This document shows positions 15,000 to 42,393 of a DNA stretch of 64,000 nt, piece by piece. The notes under the pieces were generated by a model. It saw only the letters and a program-made list of their open reading frames with translations. It made no database searches and was not told where the DNA came from. The stretch is taken from positions 1,054,001-1,118,000 of the forward strand of contig NZ_CP058561.1 of assembly GCF_018141425.1 (NCBI RefSeq), in the 5' to 3' direction. The stretch comes from Vallitalea guaymasensis. GTDB lineage: Bacteria > Bacillota > Clostridia > Lachnospirales > Vallitaleaceae. Within the stretch, counting starts at the first letter, position 1; the number at the start of each line of letters is the position of its first letter. The position numbers and the translations under genes are program-made.

Positions 15000-15022
15000 T
15001 TTACTTTTATAACTAACGATGA
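15000..15022 (+). other. Serine-recombinase attachment half-site, left (element B)
   Basis: A 21-base arm ending CTTTTATAACTAACGAT (to 15020) is followed by the presumed GA crossover core (15021-15022) and then by coding sequence of the deacetylase. The arm matches 18 of 21 bases with the arm at 35705-35725 (ending CTTTTGTAACGCACGAT). Joined head to head around GA they form a symmetric attP of the kind used by large serine integrases. Confidence 0.75.
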
Positions 15023-15263
15023 TAGCCTTGATTGGAAAGAATATGGTGTAGATCACGAAATAAAAACAGTTGTTCAAAATAAACACTTATCAAATGGTTC
15101 AATAATACTTTTCCATAACGATGCTAAATATACACCAGAAGCATTAAGACCAATATTAGATGCTCTAAAAGAAAAAGGATATGAAATTGTTCCTATATCA
15201 GAATTGATTATTAGAGACGATTATTATATGGACCACACGGGTAAACAAATAAAAAAAGAATAG
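15021..15263 (+). CDS. pdaB: PdaB-type polysaccharide deacetylase, piece 3 (codons 179-258)
   Basis: Eighty codons plus stop, with no start codon of their own, reading DSLDWKEYGVDHEIKTVVQN to the end KQIKKE. The piece supplies the rest of NodB motif 4 (WDVDSLDWK when joined) and motif 5 (IILFHND). Joining the GA core at 35727-35726 to this piece restores the frame exactly. It lies on the plus strand while the other two pieces are on the minus strand. Its native terminator follows at 15278. It is not expressed as a functional product unless the DNA is rearranged. Confidence 0.8.
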   Translation, partial: DSLDWKEYGVDHEIKTVVQNKHLSNGSIILFHNDAKYTPEALRPILDALKEKGYEIVPISELIIRDDYYMDHTGKQIKKE

Positions 15264-15277
15264 ATACATATATTATT

Positions 15278-15315
15278 AATACAATTTCTGGTTATTTAAC
15301 CAGAGATTGTATTTT
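15278..15315 (+). terminator. Native terminator of pdaB
   Basis: AATACAAT plus TCTGGTT pair with AACCAGA plus ATTGTATT around a short ATTT-type loop, ending in TTTT. It lies 15 bases after the deacetylase stop codon. Confidence 0.85.
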
Positions 15316-15460
15316 AATATGTATAAGTTTTTATATCATTATGTGTATATATAAATTGCTTTGGACAAGCCACGAAATAAAAGTTATTATTAAATAATTT
15401 ATCTATTTTTATAAGTTATACTTATCATATTCTTTATATGAGATAATTTATTTTAGTTTT

Positions 15461-15603
15461 ATTGATGATGCACATGAATAAATATTATGTCGAAAAAAGT
15501 ACAACACTTAATTATACTATTTATATACATTGATTATAAGGCTATATATTGACTATGTATTATGGTATAATTTGGCATAATTAATAAGAAAGGACGATAT
15601 ACA
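15461..15603 (+). repeat. Inverted-repeat copy of FN3-gene upstream region (copy 1) with extended -10 promoter
   Basis: This 140-bp stretch is about 85-90% identical to the reverse complement of 20164-20306, upstream of the other FN3 gene. Both keep ATGGTATAATTTGGCATAA, an extended -10 promoter (TGG-TATAAT), and the AAGGACGATAT ribosome site. The remaining sequence from 15316 to 15460 is AT-rich with nothing recognisable. Confidence 0.75.
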
Positions 15604-17046
15604 ATGAAAAATATTAAGAAATTAGTTTTATTTATTACACTGATTATAGTGGTTGGTGGAGTTAATGTTTATGCAGCAAATATTGGAGCCAAATTAACAT
15701 CACCAGAAGAAGGATGGAAAAGATATGATGATAATGCATCAGAAATAACATATATTAATTGTGATGTATTTCATTCGGAGTTCTCTAATAGTAATTATTA
15801 TTATAGTGGAATTACTGGAGATTCTGAACTGATTCCAGAAATTAGTTTTAAATTTTATGGTACTAAAATAAGATTTATTGGGACAACACATTTGGAATCA
15901 CATAGAGGGAAAGTTAAAATAATAATTGATGGTGTTGAATATGAATTTTCGCAGATTGCTAGTAATTATGATCTTGAAATATTGCAATTTGAAAAATTAG
16001 ATCTTAATAAGGATATACATACAGTGACAATTACAAGAGAAGCTAGTTATACTGGAAAACATATGTATTTAGGAGCGATTGATATAGATGAAGATGGTTA
16101 TCTGATAGGAAAGGCAAAAGTAGGTGATCAATTACTAGAGCCAGAAACTGGGTGGAAGAGGTATGATGATGCAGATTCAAGATTTAGTTATCAAGGAGAT
16201 TTTTTATCTGGAACTTCTGATCAGTATGGTGGTGATTATTATAATGATACTTTACACTGGGTAAAAGCTACTCCAGTTGTAGATGATACTAAAATAAAAT
16301 TTGAGTTCTTAGGAAGTAAATTAAGAATTATTAGCACTGTTTTTAACCAATACTCAAAAGCATTTGTAGTTAATGTTGATGGTAAGGAATATACATTCAG
16401 CCAGTACGGTGATCATTCATATCAAATGTTAATAGCTGAAATTAATAATTTAACATATGAAAGGCATACTGTTGAAATATTTAGTAATGATAATATAAGA
16501 TATACTTTTGATGCAATAGATATAGATGAAGATGGGGCATTATTACCTTTAAATGTTATCAATTTAACCGCAATACCTAACGATACTAATATAGATCTTT
16601 CTTGGGATGCTGTTGCAGATGCAGAAAAATATATAGTAAAAAGAGCAACATCTGAAAATGGTCCATTTCAAACAATTGCAGATAATGTAACATCAACTAG
16701 TTATATAGATACAACAGCACAACCAGCAGTAACATATTATTATGTAGTAAATGTTGTGAAAGGAACAATAGTTAGTGAAAACTCTAATGTTGCATCAGCT
16801 ATGATTGAAAATACAAATATAGCAGTATTACAAATTAAATTATCCACTACAGATGTATACGAATATAGAGTTACTATGAATGAAGTTGATAATTTTATGA
16901 AATGGTATATTGATAGAGCTAATGGTACAGGATTACCATTTTATAGTTTTTCAGATGAATCAAAAATAGAACCTTATACAGATGTAAATGAGTATCTGAT
17001 CTTCGATAAAATAATATGGTTTAAAGTTAAAGAGTATTTAAAATAA
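15604..17046 (+). CDS. Secreted protein with two jelly-roll-like repeats, FN3 domain and conserved C-terminal domain
   Basis: 480 residues. A signal peptide (about 1-24, ending VYAA) is followed by two repeats (about 28-170 and 175-312) each beginning with L-x-x-P-E-x-GWKRYDD and ending AIDIDEDG. A fibronectin type III domain (about 318-400) and an 80-residue C-terminal domain (KLSTTDVYEYRVTMNEVDNF to KVKEYLK) follow. The repeats resemble galactose-binding-like modules (GTKIRFIGT, KIIIDGVEY). No membrane anchor or LPXTG motif is seen. Probably an extracellular or surface binding protein. A one-repeat paralog is at 19147-20163, inverted. It lies on the pdaB side of the left att site. Confidence 0.75.
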   Translation: MKNIKKLVLFITLIIVVGGVNVYAANIGAKLTSPEEGWKRYDDNASEITYINCDVFHSEFSNSNYYYSGITGDSELIPEISFKFYGTKIRFIGTTHLESHRGKVKIIIDGVEYEFSQIASNYDLEILQFEKLDLNKDIHTVTITREASYTGKHMYLGAIDIDEDGYLIGKAKVGDQLLEPETGWKRYDDADSRFSYQGDFLSGTSDQYGGDYYNDTLHWVKATPVVDDTKIKFEFLGSKLRIISTVFNQYSKAFVVNVDGKEYTFSQYGDHSYQMLIAEINNLTYERHTVEIFSNDNIRYTFDAIDIDEDGALLPLNVINLTAIPNDTNIDLSWDAVADAEKYIVKRATSENGPFQTIADNVTSTSYIDTTAQPAVTYYYVVNVVKGTIVSENSNVASAMIENTNIAVLQIKLSTTDVYEYRVTMNEVDNFMKWYIDRANGTGLPFYSFSDESKIEPYTDVNEYLIFDKIIWFKVKEYLK

Positions 17047-17120
17047 TACTTAATAAAAGTAAGTAATTTGAGCTGTTTTATTTATAAAATATACTTTACT
17101 ACTATAATTCACAGAAATAT

Positions 17121-17192
17121 CTTGGATTGGAAAGAATATGGGTTAGAACAATAGTAGAACAGTTCAATAGAGTTAAGCAGACCAAGCATTAA
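17121..17192 (+). pseudogene. Transposase fragment
   Basis: Twenty-three codons reading LGLERIWVRTIVEQFNRVKQ then TKH and a stop. RTIVEQFNRVK matches the C-terminal segment of DDE transposases. No start codon; flanks are non-coding. A decayed remnant, different from the IS1182 remnant that follows. Confidence 0.5.
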
Positions 17193-17285
17193 ATATATCC
17201 TAGGAGATTAATAATATGAGACTTAAATAATATTTTGCAACAAGAATTAGAGCAAAGATTGTATTTAGATTAAATAAATAAAATA

Positions 17286-17720
17286 AAGGGGCTGTCTCAT
17301 GGACTTTTCCAAAATGACAAACCTCTAACTTAAAAATATAGTGAGTCACCTTCTGTTTTCTAGTAAAACAATGGGGACTCACTTGTTTTTTTGCATCATT
17401 ATTAGATATTCATAGAACCTCTTAATATTGCTATATCTTTAAGCGAATTATACATAAATTCGCCTATTATGCTTTGATCTCATGAATAAAATTTTATGTT
17501 CACAGTCCTCACACGTCTCACATTCGTAAATTTTAATCTCTGCCTTATACCCTGATTTTCAAGGTATTCATTGAACGCTTTAATATGGCGTTGAAGGGAA
17601 GTTTTTCGTTTGCCTTTACCATAGACAAATGTAATGTCTAACTGCTGCTGCTTTTTATTAAGAAATCAAAAAAGGGTGTCTCACCATAGATTTATTGATC
17701 TATTTGATGAGACAGCCCCT
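17286..17720 (-). mobile_element. IS1182-type remnant B with both terminal repeats
   Basis: About 435 bp bounded by GGGGCTGTCTCA (from 17288) and TGAGACAGCCCC (to 17720). Inside, the minus strand shows decayed transposase in shifting frames: KKQQQLDITFVYGKGKRKTS, then YECETCEDCEHKILFMRSKH, the Cys-rich segment of IS1182-family transposases. Bases 17282-17443 are an inverted near-copy of remnant A (14751-14911). Internally deleted and dead, but still a recombination substrate. Confidence 0.7.
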
Positions 17721-17775
17721 TTATAATAAGTAATAACAACTATAAAATAATTGATATTTTATTTTCTGCTACAAT

Positions 17776-18573: not shown

Positions 18574-19081
18574 CTTATATCTCCTTCACTGTTTAATAAT
18601 ATTTACTAATTATTATATATTAAAGCTGCAGCATTAATAACGATTTAAAATAATATACTTATACTATTAGTTTACTAAATTCTTTATATTTGTTAATCTT
18701 TTTAATGTTTATTATACTATTTCTATTTAACTATTCAATCATATTTTTAATTTTCGTTATTTTTTATTTTTTAATAAAATACTCTAACTTTATATAAGGT
18801 CAAATTATCTTATAAGGTTACAAAAAATTTTATTTTTGTTACTTTTAACTGAATTTATTACAAATTCTTTATTTATATTTACAACTAACATTTCTATATG
18901 CAAATAATATAATTTATGCAATATTTATATTTACTTTTATTTCCTTAATCATAAAAAATTCCACATTATAAAACAACTTATCTTTTTAAGTAAATTTTGT
19001 AATTATATCAAATATACCTTTAATTCATAATATTATTTCATTATATTCATCTGTTATTAAAATTACAAATTAAACCAAAAT
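18574..19081. other. AT-rich non-coding stretch
   Basis: About 500 bases, very AT-rich, with no open frame carrying a ribosome site, no RNA gene and no repeat that I could recognise. It holds the promoter of the minus-strand PPC gene on its left edge and ends at a terminator on its right. Confidence 0.6.
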
Positions 19082-19111
19082 AGTCCTACTTCCAATCAAG
19101 AAAGTAGGACT
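19082..19111 (-). terminator. Terminator of the second FN3 gene
   Basis: AGTCCTACTT pairs with AAGTAGGACT around a short loop. On the minus strand it is followed by ATTTTGG. Confidence 0.75.
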
Positions 19112-19146
19112 ACACATATACTAAAACTTAGTTTAATTAATAAATC

Positions 19147-20163
19147 TTATTTTATGTACTCTTTAACTTTAAACCATACTATCTTATCAAAGATCAGATA
19201 CTCATTTATATATGTATAAGGTTCAATTTTTGACTCATCTGAAAAACTATAAAATGGTAATCCTGTACCATTTGCTCTATCAATATACCATTTCATGAAA
19301 TTATCAACTTCATTCATTGTAATTCTATATTCGTATACATCTGTTGTAGATAATTTAATTTGTATTACTGCTGTATTTATATTTTCTATCATTGCTGAAG
19401 CAATGTTTGAATTATCACTTTCTACATCATTTCTCACTGCACGAACTACATAATAATAAGTAACTTCTGGTTCAACATTATTATCTATGTAAGTTGTGTC
19501 TGTTACATTAGAAGCTATTACAGTATCTATAGAACTTGATATTGTTGATCTTAAAATAGTATAGCTATCTGCACCAGAAACTTCCTTCCATGTAAGATTT
19601 ATTGTATCATTATCTGGTTTTGCCACTAATTCATTTGGTTGCATTATATATATCAGTTCTCCAGATTCATCAATATCAATAGCATCACAACTAAATCTTA
19701 TTCCATCAACGGAATATATCTCAACCTCATGTGTACCATATTCTAACCCTGTTTTTTCTGCTATTATTGATTGTTGTGTATAAGAATCACTTTGCCAAGC
19801 ACTAAAAATTCCTATAAACTCTCCATCTATTTTTAATCCTACCTGCTTAGTATATTCATCAAATATTGAACCTATAAAACGAATCTGTGTACCAACAAAT
19901 TTAAAGTTAATTTTGCACTTAATTACTTCATTATTTGAGAGACCGCTTGGTATATAATGTTGAATGCCTCCGTATGCTAATCCACTTGAATCTACTTTCC
20001 ATTCATCTCCTACGTAATTAATGCATTTATTATCATCATCATACCTTTTCCAACCAGCTTCTGGTTGTAATAATTGATCACCCACACCTGCAGCATAAAC
20101 ATTAATTCCGCCAACTACTATAATCATTGTAATAAATACAACCAACTTCTTAATATTTTTCAT
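19147..20163 (-). CDS. Secreted protein with one jelly-roll-like repeat, FN3 domain and conserved C-terminal domain
   Basis: 338 residues. Same build as the protein at 15604 with one repeat fewer: signal peptide (1-25), one repeat (LLQPEAGWKRYDDD to AIDIDESG), an FN3 domain (about 178-262) and a nearly identical C-terminal 80 residues. DNA identity is high in the signal peptide, the upstream region and the C-terminal part. The two genes face opposite ways and so form long inverted repeats. Extracellular location is inferred from the signal peptide; function unknown. Confidence 0.75.
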   Translation of the reverse strand: MKNIKKLVVFITMIIVVGGINVYAAGVGDQLLQPEAGWKRYDDDNKCINYVGDEWKVDSSGLAYGGIQHYIPSGLSNNEVIKCKINFKFVGTQIRFIGSIFDEYTKQVGLKIDGEFIGIFSAWQSDSYTQQSIIAEKTGLEYGTHEVEIYSVDGIRFSCDAIDIDESGELIYIMQPNELVAKPDNDTINLTWKEVSGADSYTILRSTISSSIDTVIASNVTDTTYIDNNVEPEVTYYYVVRAVRNDVESDNSNIASAMIENINTAVIQIKLSTTDVYEYRITMNEVDNFMKWYIDRANGTGLPFYSFSDESKIEPYTYINEYLIFDKIVWFKVKEYIK

Positions 20164-20306
20164 TATATATCGTCCTTTCCTAATAATTTATGCCAAATTA
20201 TACCATATTACATACTCAATATATAGCCTTATAATTAATTAATTTACATAGTACAATTAAGTATTGTGCTTTTTTCGACATAATATTTATTCATATGTAT
20301 CATCAA
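20164..20306 (-). repeat. Inverted-repeat copy of FN3-gene upstream region (copy 2)
   Basis: Reverse-complement counterpart of 15461-15603, with the same extended -10 element (ATGGTATAAT) and ribosome site. The following 130 bases to 20443 are non-coding and AT-rich. Confidence 0.75.
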
Positions 20307-21669: not shown

Positions 21670-21731
21670 TTATTCATTCTTTCTACTTGCTCTTTTTTTA
21701 ATTTCTTCACCCTTTCCAACTCTATACAAAA

Positions 21732-23040: not shown

Positions 23041-23199
23041 CTATTTAGCACCATTCTTTTTCGCTAGTTCTTTTTCTTTTTTGATTCTTTCATCATGTTT
23101 CATTAATACCTTATATACAAATTCAGCTACCTCTTTTTCACGTCTTTTTCTTTCTTCATCTGAAATGTCTGGATAAATATTAACTACTTTGTAAGGCAT
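23041..23199 (-). CDS. 52-residue charged phage-type protein
   Basis: Reads MPYKVVNIYPDISDEERKRR, then a long charged helix ending AKKNGAK. GAAGGAG lies eight bases before the ATG. Short MPYKVVNIYP-type proteins are common in clostridial prophages next to their regulator genes. It lies directly downstream of the small XRE gene on the same strand. Function unknown. Confidence 0.65.
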   Translation of the reverse strand: MPYKVVNIYPDISDEERKRREKEVAEFVYKVLMKHDERIKKEKELAKKNGAK

Positions 23200-26455: not shown

Positions 26456-28270
26456 ATGAATAATCAATTAAGGTTAATAAACTCTACAATAACAAGATTT
26501 CAAAAAGAAAATGATTTAGATGATCAATTTCTTTTTGAGATATTTTCAATCTCACAAATTCTAAAAAGTAAAAATATTGATTTTGTTGATATTGAGAATA
26601 GTATTGTTGATGGGGGTAATGATGGTGGAATAGATAGTGTTATAGTATTAGTCAATGATACTAATCTTAATACTATTGAAGAATTATCTGAACTAGAAAT
26701 AAACAGAAAAACTGAGTTGGAAATTTTTATCATCCAAACAAAAGATTCAAATAGTTTTAAAGAAAGGGTTTTTGATACATTAAGTCTCACATTCCAAGAT
26801 GTTTTTGACTACACTAAAGAATTAGAAGATTTAAATTCAAGATATAATCATTCTCTAGTTGATAAAATTTTCTTGTTAAGAGAAGCAATTGATCAAATTA
26901 TGGTTACTACCGATAAAGTTAGAATAAATGTAGTTTATGCTTCTAAAGGAGATACAACTCAAATATCTAATGGAGTAAAAAATAGAGCTCAACTACTAGT
27001 TCAAACACTTAAAGAAAAGTCATCTATTTCAAACTGTGAAGTTTTATATTATGGAGCTAATGAATTAAGAAAAATATTTATTGAACCTGAAGAAACAGAA
27101 TTAATTCTTAATTATAGAGACAGTTTCAGTTCCAGTTTCTTAGATGGAAGCAGTGTTGGATATGTACTTACAGTTAATCTAAAAGACTATTTTAACTTTG
27201 TTACAAAAGATAAAACAATCAGAGAGAGCATTTTTGAAAATAATGTACGTCATTTTCAAGGTAGTATTACAGTTAATAAAGGTATAAATGAAACCCTTAA
27301 AAATAGTGAAGATATAGAGTTCTGGTGGTTAAATAATGGTATTACTATACTATCCCCTGAAATAGTTCCTCTACCCGATAACAAATTACGATTAAAAAAT
27401 ATTCAAATCGTAAATGGTTTACAAACTACGTTTTGTATATATAACCATTATAAAGAAAAAGGAATTGATACTATAGATGAAAAAAGGTCTGTGCTAATTA
27501 AAATTATTAAAACAAGCGACCAAACTACTATGGATAAAATTATTTATTCCACAAATAGCCAAACAATGGTAAGAGCTGCTGATTTAAGAGCAACAGATGA
27601 ATTACAAAGAAATATTGAAAATTACTTTCTTAGTAAAGGTTACTATTATGACCGTCGTAAAAACTATTATAAAAATATGAATAAAGATCGTTCTAAAATA
27701 TTTAATATAGCTAAGACCGCACAGTATATTGAAACATTACTATTTAAAAGACCGAATTTAGCAAGAGCTAATCCTACCTCCTTACTAAAAACAGATGAAA
27801 ATTATAGCAGAATTTTTAGCTACGATTTTAACATTGATAGCTATTTAAAAGCTTGCTTACTCCATACAAAAGTAAGTAAGTTTATAAAAAAAATTCCTTT
27901 AGATTCAGATATAATAAATATAAAATATGGGGCTTCTATGAAAAATTTATCATTTCATCTTATGCTTATTACTGCTATTTTATATTTTAAAAATTACGGA
28001 TTTAATGATACTGATCTAGCTAATTTAGATTTAGATAAGATTGACCAAAAATTATTTAATCAATCACTACTATATCTTGTTCAGATATTAGATAAATTAG
28101 ATGATACTAGAAGTATAATTAATATTGCTAAATCAAGTGCTTTAACAAAAGAAATAACAAATGAATTCATTAATAAAGATAAATCTGATTATGAAATAAT
28201 AGATAATTTAACAGAAATGGTTACTGAACTAATTGCAGTATCACTTGAAGAAAGAAAGGATGACCTATAA
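26456..28270 (+). CDS. AIPR-family (abortive infection phage resistance) protein
   Basis: 604 residues. The N-terminal half (VDGGNDGGIDSVIVLVND, IFIIQTKDS) has the acidic-plus-QxK pattern of a PD-(D/E)XK-like nuclease: D/E in GGIDS and Gln-x-Lys in IIQTK. The central part (WWLNNGITILSPEI, LKNIQIVNGLQTT, NSQTMVRAADLRA) is the AIPR domain (PF10592 pattern). It overlaps the next gene by one base (TAATG), so the two are translationally coupled. Family members are linked to phage abortive infection. Role here inferred from family and context. Confidence 0.8.
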   Translation: MNNQLRLINSTITRFQKENDLDDQFLFEIFSISQILKSKNIDFVDIENSIVDGGNDGGIDSVIVLVNDTNLNTIEELSELEINRKTELEIFIIQTKDSNSFKERVFDTLSLTFQDVFDYTKELEDLNSRYNHSLVDKIFLLREAIDQIMVTTDKVRINVVYASKGDTTQISNGVKNRAQLLVQTLKEKSSISNCEVLYYGANELRKIFIEPEETELILNYRDSFSSSFLDGSSVGYVLTVNLKDYFNFVTKDKTIRESIFENNVRHFQGSITVNKGINETLKNSEDIEFWWLNNGITILSPEIVPLPDNKLRLKNIQIVNGLQTTFCIYNHYKEKGIDTIDEKRSVLIKIIKTSDQTTMDKIIYSTNSQTMVRAADLRATDELQRNIENYFLSKGYYYDRRKNYYKNMNKDRSKIFNIAKTAQYIETLLFKRPNLARANPTSLLKTDENYSRIFSYDFNIDSYLKACLLHTKVSKFIKKIPLDSDIINIKYGASMKNLSFHLMLITAILYFKNYGFNDTDLANLDLDKIDQKLFNQSLLYLVQILDKLDDTRSIINIAKSSALTKEITNEFINKDKSDYEIIDNLTEMVTELIAVSLEERKDDL

Positions 28271-31536: not shown

Positions 31537-32709
31537 ATGCTTTTTATTGGCATTGATGTCGCTTCAAAAAAACATGATGTAATTATTATTTCAGAGTACG
31601 GTGAAATCCTTTCAGAGTCTTTTACTATCGAAAACTCTTCTGCTGGATTTAAAAAACTCCATACGGAAATTTCTTCCCATACGGAGCTTTTTGATAACGT
31701 CCATATAGGGCTTGAAGAAACTGGTATTTACTCCAGTAACATCCGTGACTTCTTGCACTCTGCCGGTTTCAACGTGTATATGATTAACCCCGTTCTAACC
31801 CACCACAGTAGAATGGCATATTCACTAAGAAACACAAAAACTGATAAACTTGACTGCCTTGCAATCTGTAGATATATCATGCATAATTTCACGCATCTCA
31901 AACCCTATATATCTACACTATACACGACTTCTGAACTTAAGTCATTATCTAGATTACGTCTAGATAAACTTCATACCCTTGCAAAGGCCAAAATGGAGTT
32001 CACTCGATTGCTCCAGATTACTTTCCCTGAGTTTATCAAACACTTCAAACAGCATTCTCAGTGGGCTATGAATCTTTTCTCTTCTTATCCAGCTCCTGCT
32101 AAGATTGCTCGTATGCATCTTGACACACTTGTAAGCATTATCAAAATCAAGGGGGATCGTGTTTCTGCTGCTCAATTAATCAAAAATCTTGCTAAAAAAA
32201 CAATTGGTGATACTTCTATTACCAACTCACTTCTTATAGAGTCTATCATCGATGACATCAATCACTACAACAAACAGATTGCTATTATCGATAAACATCT
32301 TGATGCTCTGATGGCTGATTTTGATTTTATAACAACAATACCAGGTGTTGGTAACGTTATTGGTGCTTCTATCATTGGTGAAATCGGTGATATCTCACGC
32401 TTTAATTCACCTTCTCAACTATTAGCATTTGCCGGTCTTGATCCCTCCATCTATGAATCAGGAGAGTTCAAAGGTAAACGGTGTCGCATATCTAAACGTG
32501 GCTCTAAATACCTCAGAACTTCCATTTTTACAGCTACACGTGTTGCGTGTGTAGGAAAAGGCAAGAACAATCAATTCCGTCAGAAATATCATAAGAAAAA
32601 ACTTCAAGGCAAGCATCATAATTCTGCACTTTGTAATGTGTCCAAAAACATGATAAATACCATTTTCGCTATGCTTAACAGTAAAGAGGATTTTATATAC
32701 ATTACATAA
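31537..32709 (+). CDS. IS110-family transposase (DEDD recombinase)
   Basis: 390 residues, intact. The N-terminal DEDD RuvC-like domain begins FIGIDVASKKHDVIIIS, with Glu in GLEETGIY and Asp in TDKLDC. The C-terminal Transposase_20 domain has TIPGVGNVIGASIIGEIGDI and the catalytic Ser region RISKRGSKYLR. AGGAGGTC precedes the ATG. These enzymes use a guide (bridge) RNA and leave no target-site duplication. It sits between the restriction-like gene and the radical SAM gene of element B. Codon use is richer in GC than its neighbours, which suggests recent arrival. Confidence 0.92.
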   Translation: MLFIGIDVASKKHDVIIISEYGEILSESFTIENSSAGFKKLHTEISSHTELFDNVHIGLEETGIYSSNIRDFLHSAGFNVYMINPVLTHHSRMAYSLRNTKTDKLDCLAICRYIMHNFTHLKPYISTLYTTSELKSLSRLRLDKLHTLAKAKMEFTRLLQITFPEFIKHFKQHSQWAMNLFSSYPAPAKIARMHLDTLVSIIKIKGDRVSAAQLIKNLAKKTIGDTSITNSLLIESIIDDINHYNKQIAIIDKHLDALMADFDFITTIPGVGNVIGASIIGEIGDISRFNSPSQLLAFAGLDPSIYESGEFKGKRCRISKRGSKYLRTSIFTATRVACVGKGKNNQFRQKYHKKKLQGKHHNSALCNVSKNMINTIFAMLNSKEDFIYIT

Positions 32710-34180: not shown

Positions 34181-35683
34181 ATGATAGCAATATACGCTCG
34201 TCAATCCATAGATAAGAAAGATAGTATTTCCATAGAAAGTCAAATAGATTTCTGTAAAAAAGAATTTACTACAGAAAAGTACAAGGTGTATAGCGATAGA
34301 GGTTTCAGTGGCAGCAACACTAACCGCCCCCAATTTGAACAAATGCTAAAAGATATCAAGCGTGAAGATATCTCCAAAGTGATTGTTTACAAATTAGATC
34401 GTATCAGTCGTTCTATCTTAGACTTTGCTAAGATCATTGAACTATTCAAGAAAAATCACGTGGAGTTCACTAGTGCTACTGAGAAATTTGATACTAGTAC
34501 TCCTATGGGTAATGCTATGCTTAATATTACTATGGTATTCGCTCAATTAGAGCGTGAGACTATCCAGAGACGTATTAAGGACAACTACTATGCCCGAGGA
34601 AAGAAAGGCTTTTTTATGGGTGGTAAAACCCCTTATGGATGTATAAAAGAAAAGATTACTATAGATGGTGTTAAGACTTCAATTCTAAAACCTAATCCTG
34701 ATGAACATAATGTTTTAATTAAGATGTTTGACCTCTACTCTACTACCGATATATCACTAGGTAAACTTGCTACACTATTGAATCAAGAGGGTCATAAATC
34801 CCCTAGCGGTGTTAACTGGGAAGGACAGAAAATCCAGAGAATACTTCGTAACCCTGTTTATGTCATGGCTGATGCTGATGTTTATTCTTATTTTCAAAAT
34901 AGAGGTTGTAAGATAAGTAATGATATATCTGAATTTATTGGTACTAATGGCTGTTACCTATACGGTAAAAGGGATCGTAGCGCTGCCAAATATACTGATT
35001 TTAAGAATCATGTGTTATCAATCGGCTTACATAAAGGTTTTATTAGCAGCCATACTTGGTTAGCATGTCAATATAGGCTTGATAAGAATAAGCAGCTTAA
35101 GAATACTGGAAAAGGTAAATATTCTTGGTTAAGTGGTCTAGTAAAATGTGGTTATTGTAATTATGCTATGACAGTATCTAAGTACAAAGATATAAGATAT
35201 CTCAACTGTAGAGGTAAAACTAATTACAAAGTATGTACTGCAGATCATAAGACATATTATGTTGATGAGATTGAAAAATATGTAGAGACAGAGATTATTG
35301 ATAGATTCTCAGATATGGACCCAGTTACTATTAAAGCTAGTGATAATGTTAATAATATTGAAGTAAATCAATTTAAACTGCAAGTGATTGATATAGATAA
35401 TCAGATCAACCAATTAATTGAAAAACTTGCTCTATCTAATGATGTGGTTATGGATTATATTAATAAGAAAATATCAGAGTTGGATTCCATGAAAACGGAT
35501 TTATTAAAGACCATTGAAGAAAATACTATCAATGAGCACTTATCTAATTCATTATTTGAGATATCGAAGAAGATTGCTGTATGGGATACCCTTGACCTAG
35601 AAGAAAAGAAAGTAATTACTAAGAAAATAATTGATAAAGTTTTCATCACTAATGATGAAATTAAAATATCTTGGAAATACTGA
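34181..35683 (+). CDS. Large serine recombinase of element B
   Basis: 500 residues. The resolvase domain carries the catalytic Ser in IAIYARQSIDKKDS and the Arg motif YKLDRISRS. The recombinase domain spans about 160-270. The zinc ribbon is CGYCNYAM ... CRGKTNYKVC, and a coiled coil lies at about 400-460. GAGGTGATACCC precedes the ATG, and a TATAAT -10 is at 34143. It ends 21 bases from the att arm at 35705, as expected for a self-mobilising serine integrase. It should recombine the arms at 15000 and 35705. Skin-element SpoIVCA is a known relative that rebuilds a sporulation gene. Confidence 0.92.
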   Translation: MIAIYARQSIDKKDSISIESQIDFCKKEFTTEKYKVYSDRGFSGSNTNRPQFEQMLKDIKREDISKVIVYKLDRISRSILDFAKIIELFKKNHVEFTSATEKFDTSTPMGNAMLNITMVFAQLERETIQRRIKDNYYARGKKGFFMGGKTPYGCIKEKITIDGVKTSILKPNPDEHNVLIKMFDLYSTTDISLGKLATLLNQEGHKSPSGVNWEGQKIQRILRNPVYVMADADVYSYFQNRGCKISNDISEFIGTNGCYLYGKRDRSAAKYTDFKNHVLSIGLHKGFISSHTWLACQYRLDKNKQLKNTGKGKYSWLSGLVKCGYCNYAMTVSKYKDIRYLNCRGKTNYKVCTADHKTYYVDEIEKYVETEIIDRFSDMDPVTIKASDNVNNIEVNQFKLQVIDIDNQINQLIEKLALSNDVVMDYINKKISELDSMKTDLLKTIEENTINEHLSNSLFEISKKIAVWDTLDLEEKKVITKKIIDKVFITNDEIKISWKY

Positions 35684-35689
35684 TAAATA

Positions 35690-35707: not shown

Positions 35708-35727
35708 ACTTTTGTAACGCACGATTC
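35705..35727 (-). other. Serine-recombinase attachment half-site, right (element B)
   Basis: Reading the minus strand: deacetylase codons end GATGTT, then core GA (35727-35726), then the arm beginning ATCGTGCGTTACAAAAG. The arm is an inverted counterpart of the arm at 15000-15020. Joining the deacetylase side here to TAGCCTTGATTGG at 15023 gives the in-frame attB. Confidence 0.75.
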
Positions 35728-36063
35728 AACATCCCATTGTATTGTATAATACCCACACTCTCTAGCTGTCTCCACCAACTTATCATCATAATCTCCAAAA
35801 GGTGGTCTAAACAATTCCATTTCATATCCTGTCAAATTCTTAACCTTTTCATGTGCTTTCATCAGTTCGTCTTTAATACCTTCTTTTGATAATTGAGTCA
35901 TATGAGGATGAGTATTTGAATGATTGCCAATATCATGACCAGCATCTAATATCCTTTTAACATCATCTGGATATTTCTCTACCCACATACCAACCAAAAA
36001 AAATGTAGTTTTAATATCATATTCTTCTAGTATCTCTAATAAATTATCAGTATCATCATTCCC
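35728..36063 (-). CDS. pdaB: PdaB-type polysaccharide deacetylase, piece 2 (codons 67-178)
   Basis: 112 codons with no start and no stop of their own, reading GNDDTDNLLEILEEYDIKTT to YYTIQWDV. It carries NodB motif 2 (HSNTH, residues 114-118 of the joined protein) and motif 3 (RPPFGDYD, 152-159). The local frame extends past both edges (SRW before, ESCVTKVKGL after) only because element DNA happens to be open. It lies as a 336-base island between two recombinase genes that converge on it. Purifying selection is suggested by the intact frame. Confidence 0.85.
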
Positions 36064-36067
36064 CCAC

Positions 36068-36086
36068 CGTGACAATATTTATAGAC
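36068..36086 (-). other. Element A att arm, recombinase side
   Basis: Nineteen bases between the recombinase stop codon (36087) and the GTGGG core. On the minus strand it reads GTCTATAAATATTGTCACG. It is the inverted partner of the arm at 42177-42194. Confidence 0.75.
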
Positions 36087-37727
36087 TCAAATCCCCCCTG
36101 TTTGTTCTTTAATAATATCTTGCATTATACTACTATAATAATAATGAATTTCTATTGTTCCATCTTCATAAACAACAATCTCATCTAACAATTCTTCTAA
36201 TACTTCTCTATTTAATTCTGATATTTTACCTTCTTTTAATTGTTCTAACCATATATTATTAATCACTTCATTATCTTTACTATACTTTATCTTTTCTTTA
36301 ATTTGTATAATCTCCTGATCAATTTCAAATTCCAACTTATCATATTTATCTTTTATAGATAAATATTGATCTTTAGTCAAAAGTTCTTCTTTAAAATCTT
36401 CATAAGCTTCTAAAATCCTTTTTGAATACTTTTCCCTTATATTTTCTAATTTATTAAGGTATATTTGACCTCTTTCATTTTTTGTACAAATATATGAGTT
36501 TTGATTAATTAGTTCAATAATTTCTTCCTTCATAAGCTCAAGTACCAATTCTCTTTGAATATCCTTCAATAATATTTCTATTAGTTCATCTTCCTTTATC
36601 ATATGGCTACTGCATTGCTTTTTCCCATATGTTTTATATGTACCACAAACATAATAATACTTACCTTTCTTACCTTTTTTCCTATGCATTGCTCTACCAC
36701 AATCATTACATTTTAGAAATCCTGCAAATAGTGATATTTGTTTGTTTTTATTTGATATTCTAGTATCTTTGGTTAATTTGATTTGTGTCTTTTCCCATGT
36801 ATGTAAATCAATGATAGGTTCATGAGTATTATATACGATAATCTGTTCTTCTTCTGGTTTGGTTATCCTTTTATCAATCTTAAAACTTATTTTTTCTGAT
36901 TTCTTTTGAACCATATGACCAATATATACCTCATTATTTAATATCCTATGAATAGTTGAATAGGTCCAATATACAGTGGCTTTTAATCGATTACAATTTT
37001 TATACTTTAACCCTTTTCTTTTTTTATATTCGCTTGGACATGGAATTCCTTGTTCATTTAACATTTTTGCTATAGTTAATTGGTTGTATCCTTGTATATA
37101 AAAATTAAATATTTTTCTAATTACTTTAGCTGCTTTATCATCAATTAGCAATTTGTTTTTTTCTCCTGGATCTTTTATATATCCATAAGGTGCAAAAGCT
37201 CCAATAAATTCGCCTTTTCTTCTTTTTATATCTAATGATGAACGTACCTTCTTAGAAATATCAGCTGCATACATTTCATTAAAAACAAATCTAAAAGGCA
37301 TCATGTCATTACTATAATTGTTTTCACCAAAAGTATCAATACCATCATTAACAGCAATAAAACGGACACCTAATTCTTTTAACTGTTTCTCAACTAGGTC
37401 TCCAGCTCCCGCATAGTCTCTTGCTAATCTTGAACTATCTTTAACAATAACACAATTGATCTTTCCTGCTCTAATATCTGTCATCATCTGTTGAAAACCT
37501 TCACGATTAAAATTTGTCCCTGTTTTTCCATCGTCTTGATATATTTTAATAAGCTTAAATTCTTCATCAGCTTCCATGAATTTTTCTAATAATAATTTTT
37601 GATTAGTAATACTATTACTCTCATCTTTTTTATCATCATCCTCTCTTGAAAGTCTTACATATAGCCCTACTTTCCATTCATCTTTGGCAGGTGTACAAAT
37701 ATTATTATATTTACCTTTCCTACCCAA
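36087..37727 (-). CDS. Large serine recombinase of element A
   Basis: 546 residues, starting at TTG seven bases after GGGAGG. Catalytic Ser is in VGLYVRLSREDD, the Arg motif in VKDSSRLARDYAG. A recombinase domain (about 165-290), zinc ribbon (CNDCGRAMHRKK ... CGTYKTYGKKQC) and coiled coil (about 410-500) follow. The stop codon abuts the att arm. It is the last gene of the germination operon, with only 36 bases after the 84-residue gene, so it should be expressed when the ger operon is, that is during sporulation. That timing would allow excision and repair of pdaB in sporulating cells. Confidence 0.92.
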   Translation of the reverse strand: MGRKGKYNNICTPAKDEWKVGLYVRLSREDDDKKDESNSITNQKLLLEKFMEADEEFKLIKIYQDDGKTGTNFNREGFQQMMTDIRAGKINCVIVKDSSRLARDYAGAGDLVEKQLKELGVRFIAVNDGIDTFGENNYSNDMMPFRFVFNEMYAADISKKVRSSLDIKRRKGEFIGAFAPYGYIKDPGEKNKLLIDDKAAKVIRKIFNFYIQGYNQLTIAKMLNEQGIPCPSEYKKRKGLKYKNCNRLKATVYWTYSTIHRILNNEVYIGHMVQKKSEKISFKIDKRITKPEEEQIIVYNTHEPIIDLHTWEKTQIKLTKDTRISNKNKQISLFAGFLKCNDCGRAMHRKKGKKGKYYYVCGTYKTYGKKQCSSHMIKEDELIEILLKDIQRELVLELMKEEIIELINQNSYICTKNERGQIYLNKLENIREKYSKRILEAYEDFKEELLTKDQYLSIKDKYDKLEFEIDQEIIQIKEKIKYSKDNEVINNIWLEQLKEGKISELNREVLEELLDEIVVYEDGTIEIHYYYSSIMQDIIKEQTGGI

Positions 37728-37763
37728 TTACACGCCTCCCTATCCAATATCAAAATATTATTC

Positions 37764-38018
37764 TCAATATGATTTCTCAACTTTTAATTTGATTATATTC
37801 TCTAATGCTTTTTTAAATTTCACTCCTGATTGATTATATTTTTTTATGACCAATCTATTATGATAAATATATCTATCAGGGTTTTTTATCTGCTTTAAAT
37901 ATTCCATGTTTCGTTGTTTTATAGGTAATTCTTTATTAATTGTAACAGTATCTATGTCAATAACATCTTTAGTATTAAAATCATCTTTTGCTGGTGGTGA
38001 TTTTTCTCTTTGACTCAT
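37764..38018 (-). CDS. 84-residue protein beside the recombinase (DUF6870-like), candidate recombination factor
   Basis: A basic, charged protein. The segment LPIKQRNMEYLKQIKNPDRY, then IYHNRLVIKKYNQSG, resembles the small DUF6870-type proteins (EQI-NPY pattern) that travel with mobile-element genes in Clostridia. It lies between gerKB and the recombinase with 36-base gaps on each side. Size, charge and position make it a candidate recombination directionality factor for excision, but this is inference only. Confidence 0.5.
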   Translation of the reverse strand: MSQREKSPPAKDDFNTKDVIDIDTVTINKELPIKQRNMEYLKQIKNPDRYIYHNRLVIKKYNQSGVKFKKALENIIKLKVEKSY

Positions 38019-38054
38019 CCAACAACCTCATATTTTATCTTACTTAATTATATT

Positions 38055-39182
38055 CTAAGAATCATACTCTAATACATTATCATCAGCCTTTTTGTCCCCT
38101 CTATTATCGGCTAATTTTTTTCTTACTAATGCAATTATATACAGTAATATTGGAATAATAACTTGAAATGGTAAAGAATAAACAGGAAATATATAATCAA
38201 TCCATTTTGTAGCTTCAAAAATGCTTTTAAAATTTATAATAAAAACATTAAACATCATAAGTGCAACAGGAGCTATTATGAAATCATAAGTTTTATAACT
38301 AAATATTTTTGCAATCCCTTTACTTGTTGCTATAATACATATACTTACCTTTATTACCCCTCCTAAAATAAATAACAACGGGGCTATAATATCTATTCTT
38401 TGAATAAACTTCCCTACATTAATGTGACTAACCGTAGTAAGAATTGGGAAATATGCTTGTTTAGCTAGAGTCTCTCCTATAACTAATAAGGTAGTTAAGT
38501 ATAATATTACCCCCAAAAAACCTGATATAAGTATCCCAATAGTATATATCTTAGATTTACCTTTTCCTTTTATGTTAGTAAATATTGTAGTAAAAAGAAC
38601 AACTTCGCCATAAGGAAAAGCAAAAGCCAAGGGAATTTCTTTTAAAACTGGTTTTATACCATTAAATAGTACAGGTCTTAGATTATTAATTCGCATATCT
38701 TTTACCAAAAATATGATTATTAGACTTAATGCACCTGCAAACAAAAGCATTGTAGTTTCAGACCATCTTCCTATAATCTCAACACCGTATTTTGATATTA
38801 ATATACAAACTAAAAGCATCAAAAATACAGGTAATATCATAGGTGTTTCTGGTATAGATACTACATTAACCATATCCCCAAATCTCCTTAACACCAAAGA
38901 ACCTAAAATAAAAAAATAAATCGTATATAACATGATAACTATATTCCCTATTACTTTTCCAAACACTTCAATAAGTATTTCATACAGATTTTTCTTGGGG
39001 AAAATGTGCATTAACTGTTCATATATAAATGTGAATATTAATGCTATAAGTACAGCTATGATTTTAACTATCCATGCATCTTTCCCTGCATTTATTCCTG
39101 GAAAAGCAACAATTGAACTGCTTAAGAAAGTTAGTATAATTAGACTTACAGCTTGTTTTGTAGTTACAGTATCCTTATTCAT
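38055..39182 (-). CDS. gerKB: Spore germination permease, GerKB/GerAB type
   Basis: 375 residues with about ten membrane segments, of the APC-superfamily spore germination permease family (Spore_permease). The N-terminus KDTVTTKQAVSLIILTFLSS and the motif NINAGKDAW-like FPGINAGKDAWIV are typical. It sits in the spore inner membrane and binds germinants as the B subunit of a GerA-type receptor. AGGAGAGG precedes the ATG. Third large gene of the receptor operon; the order here is A, C, small D, B. Confidence 0.9.
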   Translation of the reverse strand: MNKDTVTTKQAVSLIILTFLSSSIVAFPGINAGKDAWIVKIIAVLIALIFTFIYEQLMHIFPKKNLYEILIEVFGKVIGNIVIMLYTIYFFILGSLVLRRFGDMVNVVSIPETPMILPVFLMLLVCILISKYGVEIIGRWSETTMLLFAGALSLIIIFLVKDMRINNLRPVLFNGIKPVLKEIPLAFAFPYGEVVLFTTIFTNIKGKGKSKIYTIGILISGFLGVILYLTTLLVIGETLAKQAYFPILTTVSHINVGKFIQRIDIIAPLLFILGGVIKVSICIIATSKGIAKIFSYKTYDFIIAPVALMMFNVFIINFKSIFEATKWIDYIFPVYSLPFQVIIPILLYIIALVRKKLADNRGDKKADDNVLEYDS

Positions 39183-39206
39183 ATATCCTCTCCTGAGACT
39201 TAAGAA

Positions 39207-39407
39207 TTATATAATATTTATCAAACTTTCAATCATCTTGGTTGGGCTGGGAATTTCTATTTTATTCATTATTAAAATTATTAATATGACTGACACTATC
39301 ATTGTTGGTAAATAAAGATTTAATTCCTTTTTTTTATTATTTCTATATAAATAAATACTTTCAAATAATGTAACCAATATATAGATACTAACTAAAAATG
39401 TATTCAT
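39207..39407 (-). CDS. Small two-helix germination receptor subunit (D-type)
   Basis: 66 residues with two membrane helices (about 4-20 and 32-48) and a short polar tail (KIEIPSPTKMIESLINII). Its start overlaps the gerKC stop by four bases (ATGA). Small two-helix D subunits of this size are encoded in many GerA-type operons and modulate the receptor. Identity inferred from position and topology. Confidence 0.7.
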   Translation of the reverse strand: MNTFLVSIYILVTLFESIYLYRNNKKKELNLYLPTMIVSVILIILIMNKIEIPSPTKMIESLINII

Positions 39408-40573
39408 TTCGATTCTCCCACCTTAATAATTTCAGAGTTCAAGGCAGCATTATTTATATTAATTTTCACATTTACATTAGTATCTAGACTCTGAAAAATA
39501 GAACTCCAATAGGGTTTAATTTTTTTCCATTCCTTTGGCATTTCTCTTTGTATAATATCAGAAAATCCAAAAATATCACTTTTAAATATATTTTGTGCCT
39601 TATTAATAATACACTCTATAGATTTTTTCACATACTGTTCTCCATCTTTCTGTAATATCTTCATATTGTCTTTTTGCATAAAATTGATATCTCCATTTAT
39701 AGCAGCTATTCCAACATCTATATCAACATTAATATTTAAAGCTACTTTATTATCTTTAATGATTGGCTTAATTTTGGTTTTGCTTTTGAATATTTCCAAA
39801 TCATTTTTATATTTATTACCATTTACTACACCTTCTACCTGTACTAATCCACCTTTAATTTTGTTGGTTACCCATAAAGCGCTTTTGCACTCATTACTAT
39901 TTAACCAACCTACTAATTTATCTCCCTTGAAAGCGTATCCCCCAAATACTCTAAATCTTTCTTTTCCATTTAGTAATTCCTTATCAATAGATGTAACTAT
40001 AGGTGAAGAACCATCTGTTCCTAAAGAAGTTATAAATTCCCACATTGTTATCACTGGATATTTTGCTACACTCTTCTGAAATTCTATCGCTTGATTAATA
40101 CTGAAGGATATAATATCGTTATCTTTTTTAGTCTTAATATTCAATATTTCTCCTGCTGTATCTTCTTTGGAAATGAGGAACTTAATATCACCTCTTATTT
40201 CTGCATCTCTATACAAATAATCAACAATAGATACTATATCATCCTCTGCAATATCCTTACTGAAAATAATAATCTTTGTATGAGTCCAATATGGCTTTTC
40301 ACTTTTTTGTATTAAAATATCTCTAACCGAATCAAATGGTGTTACCCCTTCGGTAATATAAATATCAGAAGTTATAGTATTTCCACCACCTTCAGATGTA
40401 AAACTTATAATTTCTGTTGTAAGTATATATTTATTGTTATGCTTGTCTTTATCTATTGCTACACCTGCAACTATCCCCATATCATTAGTCTCTTTATAAT
40501 TCCAACATCCTGTTAAAATATTAGTATTTGTTACAATAATAAGTATAAGGAATATTTTTTTAAGTTTCTTCAT
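39404..40573 (-). CDS. gerKC: Spore germination lipoprotein, GerKC/GerAC type
   Basis: 389 residues. Lipoprotein signal with lipobox LTGC (Cys23) followed by WNYKETNDMGIVAGVAIDKD, the classic start of GerAC proteins. Later segments (IIFSKDIAEDDIVSIVDYLY, FGGYAFKGDKLVGWL, IINKAQNIFKSDIFGFSDII) match the Ger(x)C family. It is the membrane-anchored C subunit of the germinant receptor. 17 bases separate it from gerKA. Confidence 0.93.
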   Translation of the reverse strand: MKKLKKIFLILIIVTNTNILTGCWNYKETNDMGIVAGVAIDKDKHNNKYILTTEIISFTSEGGGNTITSDIYITEGVTPFDSVRDILIQKSEKPYWTHTKIIIFSKDIAEDDIVSIVDYLYRDAEIRGDIKFLISKEDTAGEILNIKTKKDNDIISFSINQAIEFQKSVAKYPVITMWEFITSLGTDGSSPIVTSIDKELLNGKERFRVFGGYAFKGDKLVGWLNSNECKSALWVTNKIKGGLVQVEGVVNGNKYKNDLEIFKSKTKIKPIIKDNKVALNINVDIDVGIAAINGDINFMQKDNMKILQKDGEQYVKKSIECIINKAQNIFKSDIFGFSDIIQREMPKEWKKIKPYWSSIFQSLDTNVNVKININNAALNSEIIKVGESK

Positions 40574-40590
40574 TTACTTATTCTTCTTTC

Positions 40591-42066
40591 TTATTTATTC
40601 AATAGATTTTTAATATTAAATTTATCTTTTTTTTGCATGTACCAAAAGGGGTACCTAATACTAGTATCATACAGAGATTTTTTGTCTATTTTAATGAATT
40701 TTGACATATAATTAACTCCAAAGGATTTCATTGATGTTAGATAAAAAGAAACACAAATAGCTGCAAATAAATACCCATATAACCCTATTACAGAAGCTGC
40801 TATCATAAAAATATATCTCAATATTAATATTGGCATAAATATTTTAGGTAATAGATAACTACAAATCCCAGTTGTAGCAACAATAATTACCATTGATGGA
40901 CTTACAATTTTAGCCTGCACTGCCGCCTCTCCTAATACTAATGCTCCAATTATACTAACAGTTTGCCCTAGTGTCTTAGGCATTCTCGTAGATGCCTCTT
41001 TTAAAATATCAAATATCAATAACATAATAACTGCTTCGATAAAGATAGGTAATGGTACTGATTCTCTAGAAGCTGCAATACTTAATAATAATTGAGTAGG
41101 TACCATTTCTTGATGATACGTTAATACAGCTAAGTAAATAGCTGGTACTGAAGTAGCAAGAAAAAACCCTAAAATCCTGATAAGCCTATTGAATGAACCA
41201 TAGATATAATTATTATTATAGTCTTCTACATTTTGAATATTTTCCAGAAACAAAAAAGGTATAGTTAATACAAAAGGGGTACCATCACACAGAATGGCTA
41301 TCCTGCCTTCTAACAATTTTGCTGCTACCACATCAGGTTTTTCTGTATTGCCTACTGTGTTAAAAGGTAATTTTGAGTGGTCTCTTATTAATTCTTCGAT
41401 ATAGCCTGATTCAAGAACACCATCTATTTTTATAGTAGATAATCTTTTATTCAATTCTTCAAGTATTTGTTTAGATACTATATTATCTAAATAACAAATA
41501 CAGATTTTGGTTTTAGTTACATTTCCTACTTCCCTATAACTAAATTTCAACTGTGAAGATATTATTTTTCTCCTTATCAATGATATATTCGTTTCTAGAG
41601 ATTCATTGAACCCTTCTCTGGATCCTCTAATAACGCTTTCTCCCTCTGGTTCTTTAATATCTCTTACTTGTCCACCTTTTGTATCTACTACTAATGCTTC
41701 TAGAATACCATTAAGAAATATAACAGTATTACCTTGTAATATATTTAGTATAATCGTTTGTTCATCTGATGTTTTCTTTACAGTGAGGATGTTTATTATC
41801 TTATATTTAATAAAATCAATTATATCTTCATTTTTTATATTCTTTTCTATATCACTTTTCATTATTGGTGAAATCAAATTATTGTTTATTATATTTTTAT
41901 CTATAAGAGGACTTAAATAAACAATACCACATCTAATACTACAATCTTGATTATCAATAAATCGAAATTCAAAAGTTTCATCATCCTTAAAAATATCTTG
42001 GTAACGCTTAATATCTTTTTTCAAAACTCCTGTAAGACTTGATTCTCTAAATATCTTTTTATCCAT
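40591..42066 (-). CDS. gerKA: Spore germination protein, GerKA/GerAA type
   Basis: About 491 residues from the ATG at 42066, which follows GAGGTG; the frame is open 14 codons further up (from 42108). N-terminal soluble domain with DVVAAKLLEGRIAILCDGTP and RDIKEPEGESVIRGSREGFN, the GerA signature. Four or more membrane helices follow, with PLPIFIEAVIMLLIFDILKE and GQTVSIIGALVLGEAAVQAK. It is the A subunit of the germinant receptor. First gene of the element A operon, and it also lies downstream of the pdaB promoter fragment. Confidence 0.93.
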   Translation of the reverse strand: MDKKIFRESSLTGVLKKDIKRYQDIFKDDETFEFRFIDNQDCSIRCGIVYLSPLIDKNIINNNLISPIMKSDIEKNIKNEDIIDFIKYKIINILTVKKTSDEQTIILNILQGNTVIFLNGILEALVVDTKGGQVRDIKEPEGESVIRGSREGFNESLETNISLIRRKIISSQLKFSYREVGNVTKTKICICYLDNIVSKQILEELNKRLSTIKIDGVLESGYIEELIRDHSKLPFNTVGNTEKPDVVAAKLLEGRIAILCDGTPFVLTIPFLFLENIQNVEDYNNNYIYGSFNRLIRILGFFLATSVPAIYLAVLTYHQEMVPTQLLLSIAASRESVPLPIFIEAVIMLLIFDILKEASTRMPKTLGQTVSIIGALVLGEAAVQAKIVSPSMVIIVATTGICSYLLPKIFMPILILRYIFMIAASVIGLYGYLFAAICVSFYLTSMKSFGVNYMSKFIKIDKKSLYDTSIRYPFWYMQKKDKFNIKNLLNK

Positions 42067-42176
42067 TAATAAGAACACCTCTATTATTATTGGTGAAATA
42101 TCTTCCATAATTAATACTTCTTATTTTTACCAAAAATAATATACTTATTCTATTTAATTATACTATCTCTGTTTGT

Positions 42177-42194
42177 GTCTATAAATGACATCAG
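42177..42194 (+). other. Element A att arm, ger side
   Basis: Eighteen bases between the GTGGG core (42195-42199) and the ger operon. The plus strand reads GTCTATAAATGACATCAG. The first ten bases equal those of the other arm, in inverted orientation. Confidence 0.75.
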
Positions 42195-42195
42195 C

Positions 42196-42393
42196 CCACG
42201 CTGCATCAAAACTTATTGCAACCTTCTTCTCATCCGTATCAACACAATAAATAGGCAATTGCTTCTTACTCGTTGATAACGTAGCTATTGTTTTTTCAAT
42301 CAAAACATTACTAAGCATCATTATTGCCAATATAATTAACAATACACCTATAACTTTAATCAAAACCTTTGTATTTAGACGTGTTCTATTCAT
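42196..42393 (-). CDS. pdaB: PdaB-type polysaccharide deacetylase, piece 1 (codons 1-66)
   Basis: ATG with GGAGG 6 bases ahead. Encodes MNRTRLNTKVLIKVIGVLLI, an N-terminal membrane anchor or signal (about 9-30), then QLPIYCVDTDEKKVAISFDA with NodB motif 1 (SFD, residues 61-63), up to Trp66. Beyond 42196 the frame enters element A and stops at 42163. Joined with the other two pieces the protein has 258 residues, the usual size of PdaB-type sporulation deacetylases (B. subtilis PdaB is about 254). PdaB acts on spore peptidoglycan and is needed for stable spores. Confidence 0.82.

Follow-up and report, generated by a model that had tools for sequence, protein, structure and literature searches.

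Two families of large serine recombinase elements split the sporulation gene pdaB in Vallitalea guaymasensis, and recombination probably rebuilds it

Introduction

How could a bacterium make an enzyme whose gene lies in three pieces on both strands of its chromosome? The question is raised by pdaB, which encodes a polysaccharide deacetylase of the spore wall, in the marine spore former Vallitalea guaymasensis. In Bacillus subtilis, pdaB acts in sporulation, as the family name also indicates. The window analyzed here is a stretch of 64,000 nucleotides (positions 1,054,001 to 1,118,000 of NZ_CP058561.1) from a genome (G000) assembled as a single contig of 5.63 Mb. Within it, pdaB is cut at two places (break 1 and break 2), each beside a gene for a large serine recombinase. 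We observed the anatomy of attachment (att) sites, exact joins, conserved recombinases, purifying selection, recurrence of the breaks and a joined form in one metagenome-assembled genome (MAG). Many relatives of the order Lachnospirales carry one or both cuts, which suggests that the DNA is re-spliced to make a working gene. The best explanation, to which we give a probability of about 0.7, is that two recombinase families split pdaB and that recombination rebuilds it.

Results

The preliminary description of this DNA had assigned pdaB to three pieces that join in frame, and the comparison with relatives confirmed this. Piece 1 (codons 1-66; 42196-42393, minus strand) encodes the membrane anchor and runs to the motif SFDAAW. 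Piece 2 (codons 67-178; 35728-36063, minus strand) encodes the NodB core and matches the Pfam family Polysacc_deac_1 (PF01522) with 119.6 bits. Piece 3 (15021-15263, plus strand) supplies codons 179-258 and the stop; the coordinates of all three pieces were confirmed. Joining at a core TG and a core GA gives exactly 258 codons with no stop and no indel. Full-length orthologues are present in two congeners (G002 and G005), and the intact product of G005 agrees with both predicted joins and shares 249 of 258 residues with the rebuilt protein. Membership in the PdaB family is taken from the G005 protein, which passes the NCBIfam equivalog TIGR02764 (240.2 bits; cut-off 237.4), and the window protein is linked to it by this identity; piece 2 alone scores 140.8 bits over its part of the model. 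A second PdaB elsewhere in the genome was considered and rejected, as its seven other deacetylases all score below the cut-off. Upstream of pdaB lies a strongly conserved block that could not be matched to a sigma factor. Scans of the window with Rfam (gathering threshold) and for tRNA genes gave no matches.

Each break directly adjoins a recombinase gene and has its own proper att sites, which bears out the earlier view of two independent serine recombinase elements. The gene at break 1 is rec1 (36087-37727, minus strand; PF00239, PF07508 and PF13408), and that at break 2 is rec2 (34181-35683, plus strand), which is convergent with piece 2. At break 1, the core dinucleotide TG lies at 42197-42198 in attL1 and at 36065-36066 in attR1 (both minus strand), the latter joining with 42198-42197. 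The two sites share the run TGGG, with TG as the dyad center, and are direct, i.e. in the excisable orientation. At break 2, the core GA lies at 35726-35727 (minus strand) in attL2 and at 15021-15022 (plus strand) in attR2, which is inverted relative to attL2.

The attP sites of serine recombinases are described in the cited part of PMC5595907 as inverted repeats around a central dinucleotide. The core GA was found on both sides of break 2 in all 31 genomes with both sides readable. When the element ends of these genomes were joined, the dyad had 9-18 matches in 20 (mean 14.4; shuffles 7.1) and reached at least 12 in 28 genomes, against 2.9% of shuffles; the count omits G264, G318, G159, G082, G030 and G058, which have another insertion or a missing side. 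The dyad around TG at break 1 had 13-17 matches in 20 in the six genomes read on both sides (G000, L059, G193, G265, G082 and G324), the shuffles giving a mean of 5.8 and a maximum of 14 in 3000. A first reading of break 1 had TG in the search pattern for four of the six genomes; a trial of 11 positions was run instead, and TG alone stood out (mean 14.5; next 7.3). An in-frame split with exact repair, a serine recombinase, and attL and attR with a common core and dyad arms, the marks of a sporulation gene-intervening element, were thus all found.

Break 2 recurs within the genus. It is present in four of six Vallitalea genomes (G000, G001, G003 and G004) and absent in the two with intact pdaB, G002 and G005. 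The partner of rec2 lies directly beside piece 2 in G003 (77% identical) and G001 (73%) and 1.8 kb from it in G004 (64%), and neither intact genome has a rec2 match above 36%. Element 1 was found in the window genome only. Relatives of rec1 in G003 (49%) and G004 (39%) were followed up in the open reading frame (ORF) lists, and no split sporulation gene was seen at their loci.

The breaks also recur across the order. Among 69 loci from named records, eight diverge from PdaB directly behind codon 178-180 (L041, L042, L046, L049, L050, L052, L053 and L059), the contig of another (L061) stops at the core, and in three the frames merge with the PdaB sequence only at the break-1 site (L059, L063 and L065). 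L095, also taken up as a split gene, is a frameshift. From an order-wide sample of 392 genomes, 45 were picked for a weak or partial best pdaB match. Junctions were read in 33 of these and in the four Vallitalea genomes, and 34 of these 37 have the GA-type split of break 2; since the 45 were picked in this way, the number is a minimum and gives no frequency. The remaining three were rejected as break-2 cases: in G030 and G058 a contig end falls at the site or close to it and intact pdaB continues on the following contig, and G264 carries a different insertion without the GA core on the right. The 12 unread genomes comprise four split ones (G104, G150, G260 and G302), two with break 1 only (G193 and G265), a partial one (G305) and five with near full-length matches (G022, G023, G025, G034 and G068). 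In 31 of the 34 break-2 genomes, a gene of the rec2 family is found no more than 4.5 kb from the junction; in the other three (G099, G159 and G082), the view is limited by a contig end, a missing side or a short stretch. The break-2 elements are 2.5 to 46 kb long.

Break 1 recurs with a second recombinase clade. All three pdaB pieces are found in the window genome and three others: G324, with both breaks read on both sides; G082, with break 1 read on both sides, the left contig of break 2 ending at the site and the right half read; and a MAG (L059/G011), with both sides of each break read on two contigs. In G229 and G032, the right half starts at the break-1 site and piece 3 is separate; the first piece is not listed there.

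The recombinases fall into families that match the breaks. FastTree placed 31 break-2 recombinases in one group, apart from 25 others, and the five break-1 recombinases (rec1 of the window and those of four other genomes) in another; these groups are given without support values, from a small comparison set partly chosen by similarity. All six split genomes searched have a rec2-like gene at pdaB (E < 1e-100). The best NCBIfam match of rec2 is XisF (NF041201; 149.9 bits), to which rec1 scores 102.2 bits, both under the cut-off of 375, and the element recombinases reach at most 124.3 bits to CcrA/B/C of staphylococcal cassette chromosome (SCC) elements, whose cut-offs are 700-900.

Relaxed selection on the pieces, which the preliminary description had named among the findings that would speak against it, was not seen. 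They are instead under purifying selection, as judged from nonsynonymous (dN) and synonymous (dS) substitution rates. Compared with intact pdaB of G005, piece 1 has a dN of 0.026 and a dS of 0.252, piece 2 of 0.015 and 0.406, and piece 3 of 0.005 and 0.501; the resulting dN/dS of 0.01-0.10 is at or below the range of eight neighboring genes. Between split congeners, the break-2 pieces have a dN/dS of 0.004-0.194 where dS is not saturated, in a set from which trimming dropped the left pieces of G229, G032, G082, G324 and G000, the last being done separately. The dN/dS of rec2 is 0.04-0.35, again where dS is not saturated, and that of the break-1 pieces and recombinase in the genus of G193, G265 and G082 is 0.014-0.251.

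The two elements differ in content. Element 1 (36067-42198, minus strand; 6.13 kb from core to core) holds, besides rec1, a ger operon and a small DUF6870 protein (37764-38018, minus strand; PF21757). The operon, all on the minus strand, encodes a GerA-type germinant receptor subunit (40591-42108; PF03323, 553 bits), a GerC-type (Spore_GerAC) subunit (39404-40573; PF05504 and PF25198) and a GerB-type spore permease subunit (38055-39182; PF03845). The first is assigned to the GerA family by Pfam; its 305.5 bits to GerXA (NF052514) are under the cut-off of 850. The cargo of element 2 includes an AIPR protein and a GmrSD-type restriction gene (26456-30117, plus strand; Pfam) and an IS110-family transposase (31537-32709, plus strand; Pfam, and NF033542 above its cut-off). 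A CE2_N-domain esterase gene (15604-17046, plus strand; PF17996) has a shorter inverted paralogue at 19147-20163 (minus strand; inverted repeats I1-I3). A 34-bp sequence at 17116-17150 (plus strand) resembles the start of piece 3. A Pfam scan of 15 element ORFs detected no phage structural or packaging genes.

A 52-amino-acid protein encoded in element 2 (23041-23199, minus strand) is probably the recombination directionality factor of this element, judging from its distribution. Homologues occur in the break-2 elements of G001, G003 (three copies) and G004, and a weaker one in that of the isolate Defluviitalea phaphyphila Alg1, which carries a single break whose att sites are direct (11.8 kb). 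Besides rec2, this ORF is the only item found in all four Vallitalea break-2 elements, and the remaining genes of element 2 are common to pairs of elements only. By eye, a small ORF resembling it precedes the rec2-like recombinases of two elements of G288 that lie away from pdaB (L379 and L380).

Several further loci attracted our attention. Minimal break-2 elements of 2.5-2.8 kb (L326, L329 and L330, in G151, G237 and G291) hold little besides the recombinase gene and a gene that, by eye, is amidase-like and recalls the amidases of the spore cortex. The insertion in G264 (L288, C1:1136669-1138179) is 1.5 kb long, lies near the place of break 2 and carries a CAP-domain-like gene (by eye) and no recombinase. 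In L096 (G015), an open pdaB 3' end is followed by two additional, degenerate copies of the 3' piece (1600-1890 and 3714-3857), perhaps scars of former elements. Genome G013, the source of L063, has eleven pdaB N-terminal ORFs of 77-86 codons that end at the break-1 site (L233-L238; contigs C38, C64, C47, C6 and C134), and the four measured lie in 300-nt repeats. These ORFs separate defense-like blocks, namely type I CRISPR-Cas (Cas1, Cas7 and Csd1), an OLD-TOPRIM and UvrD pair like Gabija, a TOTE primase-helicase and a RelBE-like pair (by eye), and the whole looks like a cassette array bordered by pdaB att sites. About 13 kb to the left of the window (L171, G000:C1, around 1038774-1041086), feoB is cut to fewer than 300 codons next to another serine recombinase, as it is in G001; it is intact (717-721 amino acids) in G002 and G004.

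Discussion

We propose that pdaB is a host gene in which two attB sites are native, one with the core TG in codon 66 (within FDAAWG) and one with the core GA in codon 179 (within WDVDSLDW). A separate family of large serine recombinase elements would use each site, and both sites would be occupied in the window strain. The products of rec1 and rec2, each with a directionality factor, are predicted to recombine attL with attR, which would join the pieces precisely and let the cell produce PdaB. Break 1 would heal by excision of 6.13 kb, and break 2 by an inversion of 20.7 kb or, once a 2.4-kb segment has flipped back, by excision. The likely setting, by analogy with skin and SPbeta, is the terminal mother cell during sporulation.

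Several observations weigh against this explanation. No clear sporulation promoter was found; a sigma-E-like -10 box before the 52-amino-acid candidate was noted by eye only. The rec2 family is not bound to pdaB: the split genome G092 has a second rec2-like gene elsewhere, and such genes lie away from pdaB in two of 32 genomes with intact pdaB at E < 1e-100 (G288, twice, and G166) and are present in 12 of the 32, these two included, at E <= 1e-60. An exclusive tie of rec2-like genes to pdaB is rejected by the former two. Between G000 and G003, dS is 0.44 for rec2 and 2.1 for the right half of pdaB, so rec2 has moved between species, and vertical inheritance as the sole cause of its sharing is rejected for this pair. 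In G264, pdaB is broken by an unrelated, apparently dead insertion. In the MAG with the joined form (G012), the contig expected to carry attL, a third one with the same 127 bases as the two described below, was not found in the bin, and a mixture of strains is therefore as possible there as excision. Finally, piece 3 lies on the plus strand and pieces 1 and 2 on the minus strand.

The last point concerns the mode of repair. The att sites and exact joins sustain the double repair that the preliminary description had proposed; its assumption that both elements leave by excision fails at break 2 as assembled, since plain excision between inverted att sites is impossible. Recombination between the present inverted sites would invert 20.7 kb and rebuild the gene as well. 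Piece 3, the CE2_N-domain esterase gene and the 34-bp sequence that resembles the start of piece 3 sit in a 2.4-kb segment (14911-17283) between 167-bp inverted repeats (left arm 14744-14910, plus strand; right arm 17284-17451, minus strand; 96% identical), and a flip of this segment would bring back direct att sites. It is possible, and we hold this tentatively, that the inverted piece 3 is an assembly artifact or a minority state that arose through these repeats, the true or major state being direct and both breaks excisable. Flipping the segment would give the relative strand of all 16 other genomes with both break-2 pieces on one contig (G001, G004, G039, G061, G092, G101, G127, G135, G143, G151, G174, G237, G269, G291, G312 and G316). 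However, the genome was assembled as a single contig, and the genes at 12906-13394 and 11228-11476, which lie beyond piece 3, have relatives inside the element of G001, which implies a rearrangement history of more than one flip. Behind piece 3, the native 3' flank of pdaB extends as far as 15319; the gene that comes next in G005 has its match near 4.26 kb of the window, in normal orientation. This alternative bears on orientation alone and is compatible with reconstruction of pdaB by two recombinase families.

A second alternative is that the elements excise at low frequency at all stages of growth, as in active lysogeny or phase variation, and that a joined minority sporulates with no developmental control. 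The trace of joining in G012 (L061; Candidatus Epulonipiscium sp. AS20ysBPTH_2) fits this idea as well as the main proposal. The GA core forms the end of one contig; a second opens with the last 127 bases of the first and then runs through intact pdaB, which is what a k-mer graph yields at a branch point with two continuations. In G058, too, contigs meet at the core; they have 7 bases in common. Viral contigs point the same way: L347 carries a joined attP-like dyad (17 of 20; shuffle maximum 14) next to a relative of rec2, in a search that covered 27 of the 31 viral contigs with such relatives, and L353 and L360 carry related integrases together with phage-like genes (by eye), which suggests that there are phages among the relatives of rec2. 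A pdaB piece was detected by tblastn in two of the 31 (L350 and L367), and by eye the first bases of piece 3 form the end of L348; no pdaB was seen in the others.

The strongest indirect argument for the mother cell comes from the cargo of a sister lineage rather than from the window strain. The break-1 segment of G193, G265 and G082 (11-14 kb; L340, L341 and L335) has intact cores and dyads and includes pcrA- and ligA-like genes; these were named from sequence, and PF01653 confirmed the ligase. In G265 (one contig) and G193, it holds the only match to an NAD-dependent ligase in the genome; in G082 there is one more match, weak and partial. The congener G181 has these genes downstream of an intact pdaB. 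With the only ligase match inside, the segment could hardly be excised in a cell that leaves descendants. Its loss from growing cells of G265 would be expected to be lethal, which favors a terminal cell. In addition, the published cases of such elements are sporulation-specific according to the cited part of PMC5595907. Excision free of developmental control is therefore unlikely.

It is also conceivable that these are ordinary integrated mobile elements and that pdaB is dead in the window strain, its frames still open only by recent insertion. The restriction of element 1 to one of six genomes of the genus, the orientation of piece 3, the horizontal movement of rec2 and the apparently decayed insertion in G264 would agree with this. 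However, between split congeners both halves of the gene stay under constraint where dS is high or saturated, the recombinases are constrained as well, and the halves with the GA core are retained in four of six Vallitalea genomes and in at least 34 genomes across the order. We consider a dead gene quite improbable. A chance match of the frames is ruled out by the exact joins and the intact orthologues in two congeners, and the score of piece 2 also makes it implausible.

We also offer, with less than even confidence, a broader view. Under reconstruction by two recombinase families, pdaB might be a general DNA-splicing locus of the spore formers of Lachnospirales, the two families each being specialized on one invariant stretch of the gene. 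Several genomes hold both elements, and their mother cells would have to perform two rearrangements per enzyme. In the window strain, one of these would be an inversion without loss of DNA; in the sister lineage, the spliced-out segment, with the only DNA ligase gene found, would be compatible only with a dying cell.

Here two recombinase families strike a single gene, each at its own place, and they do so repeatedly across an order to which the isolate D. phaphyphila Alg1 belongs. This makes it testable why elements persist in sporulation genes, whether as selfish DNA, as domesticated DNA or as both, and it supplies tens of matched pairs of recombinase and att sites. A reading of gene content could score pdaB as truncated or missing and might wrongly cast doubt on sporulation.

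Programmed reconstruction has been described for sigK, spsM, spoVFB, gerE and yabG (cited parts of PMC5595907 and PMC10747680). Split pdaB, or a polysaccharide deacetylase as the target of a large serine recombinase, was not found in the open-licence literature searched. In sigK of B. subtilis and Clostridioides difficile, as here, a serine recombinase element (skin) splits a sporulation gene, and in B. subtilis the recombinase gene lies downstream of the 5' sigK piece (same sources, in part). Unlike skin, the elements described here involve another gene and other recombinases, two sites in one gene and one inverted att pair. Excision of SPbeta rebuilds a spore-envelope gene, spsM (PMC4191935, in part), and uses a recombinase plus a directionality factor (PMC5595907, in part); the target differs, and no phage structural genes were found in the 15 pdaB-element ORFs scanned. 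The gin element in gerE of Bacillus cereus ATCC10987 is similar in that, in the cited part of PMC5595907, it is described with no phage genes, serine recombinases and an imperfect inverted repeat around a central dinucleotide; it makes one break and has three recombinase genes, whereas pdaB has two breaks with one recombinase each. The elements yin in yabG of Clostridium botulinum and vfbin in spoVFB likewise target sporulation genes, and yin is termed unique by its authors (PMC10747680, in part), whereas 34 genomes were found here with break 2 of pdaB. The best NCBIfam match of rec2 is XisF of the fdxN element, yet its score is far under the family cut-off. The split pdaB is of a known kind, that of skin and SPbeta, with new features: a target gene for which the literature searched gave no report, a separate recombinase family for each of two sites, and one inverted pair of sites.

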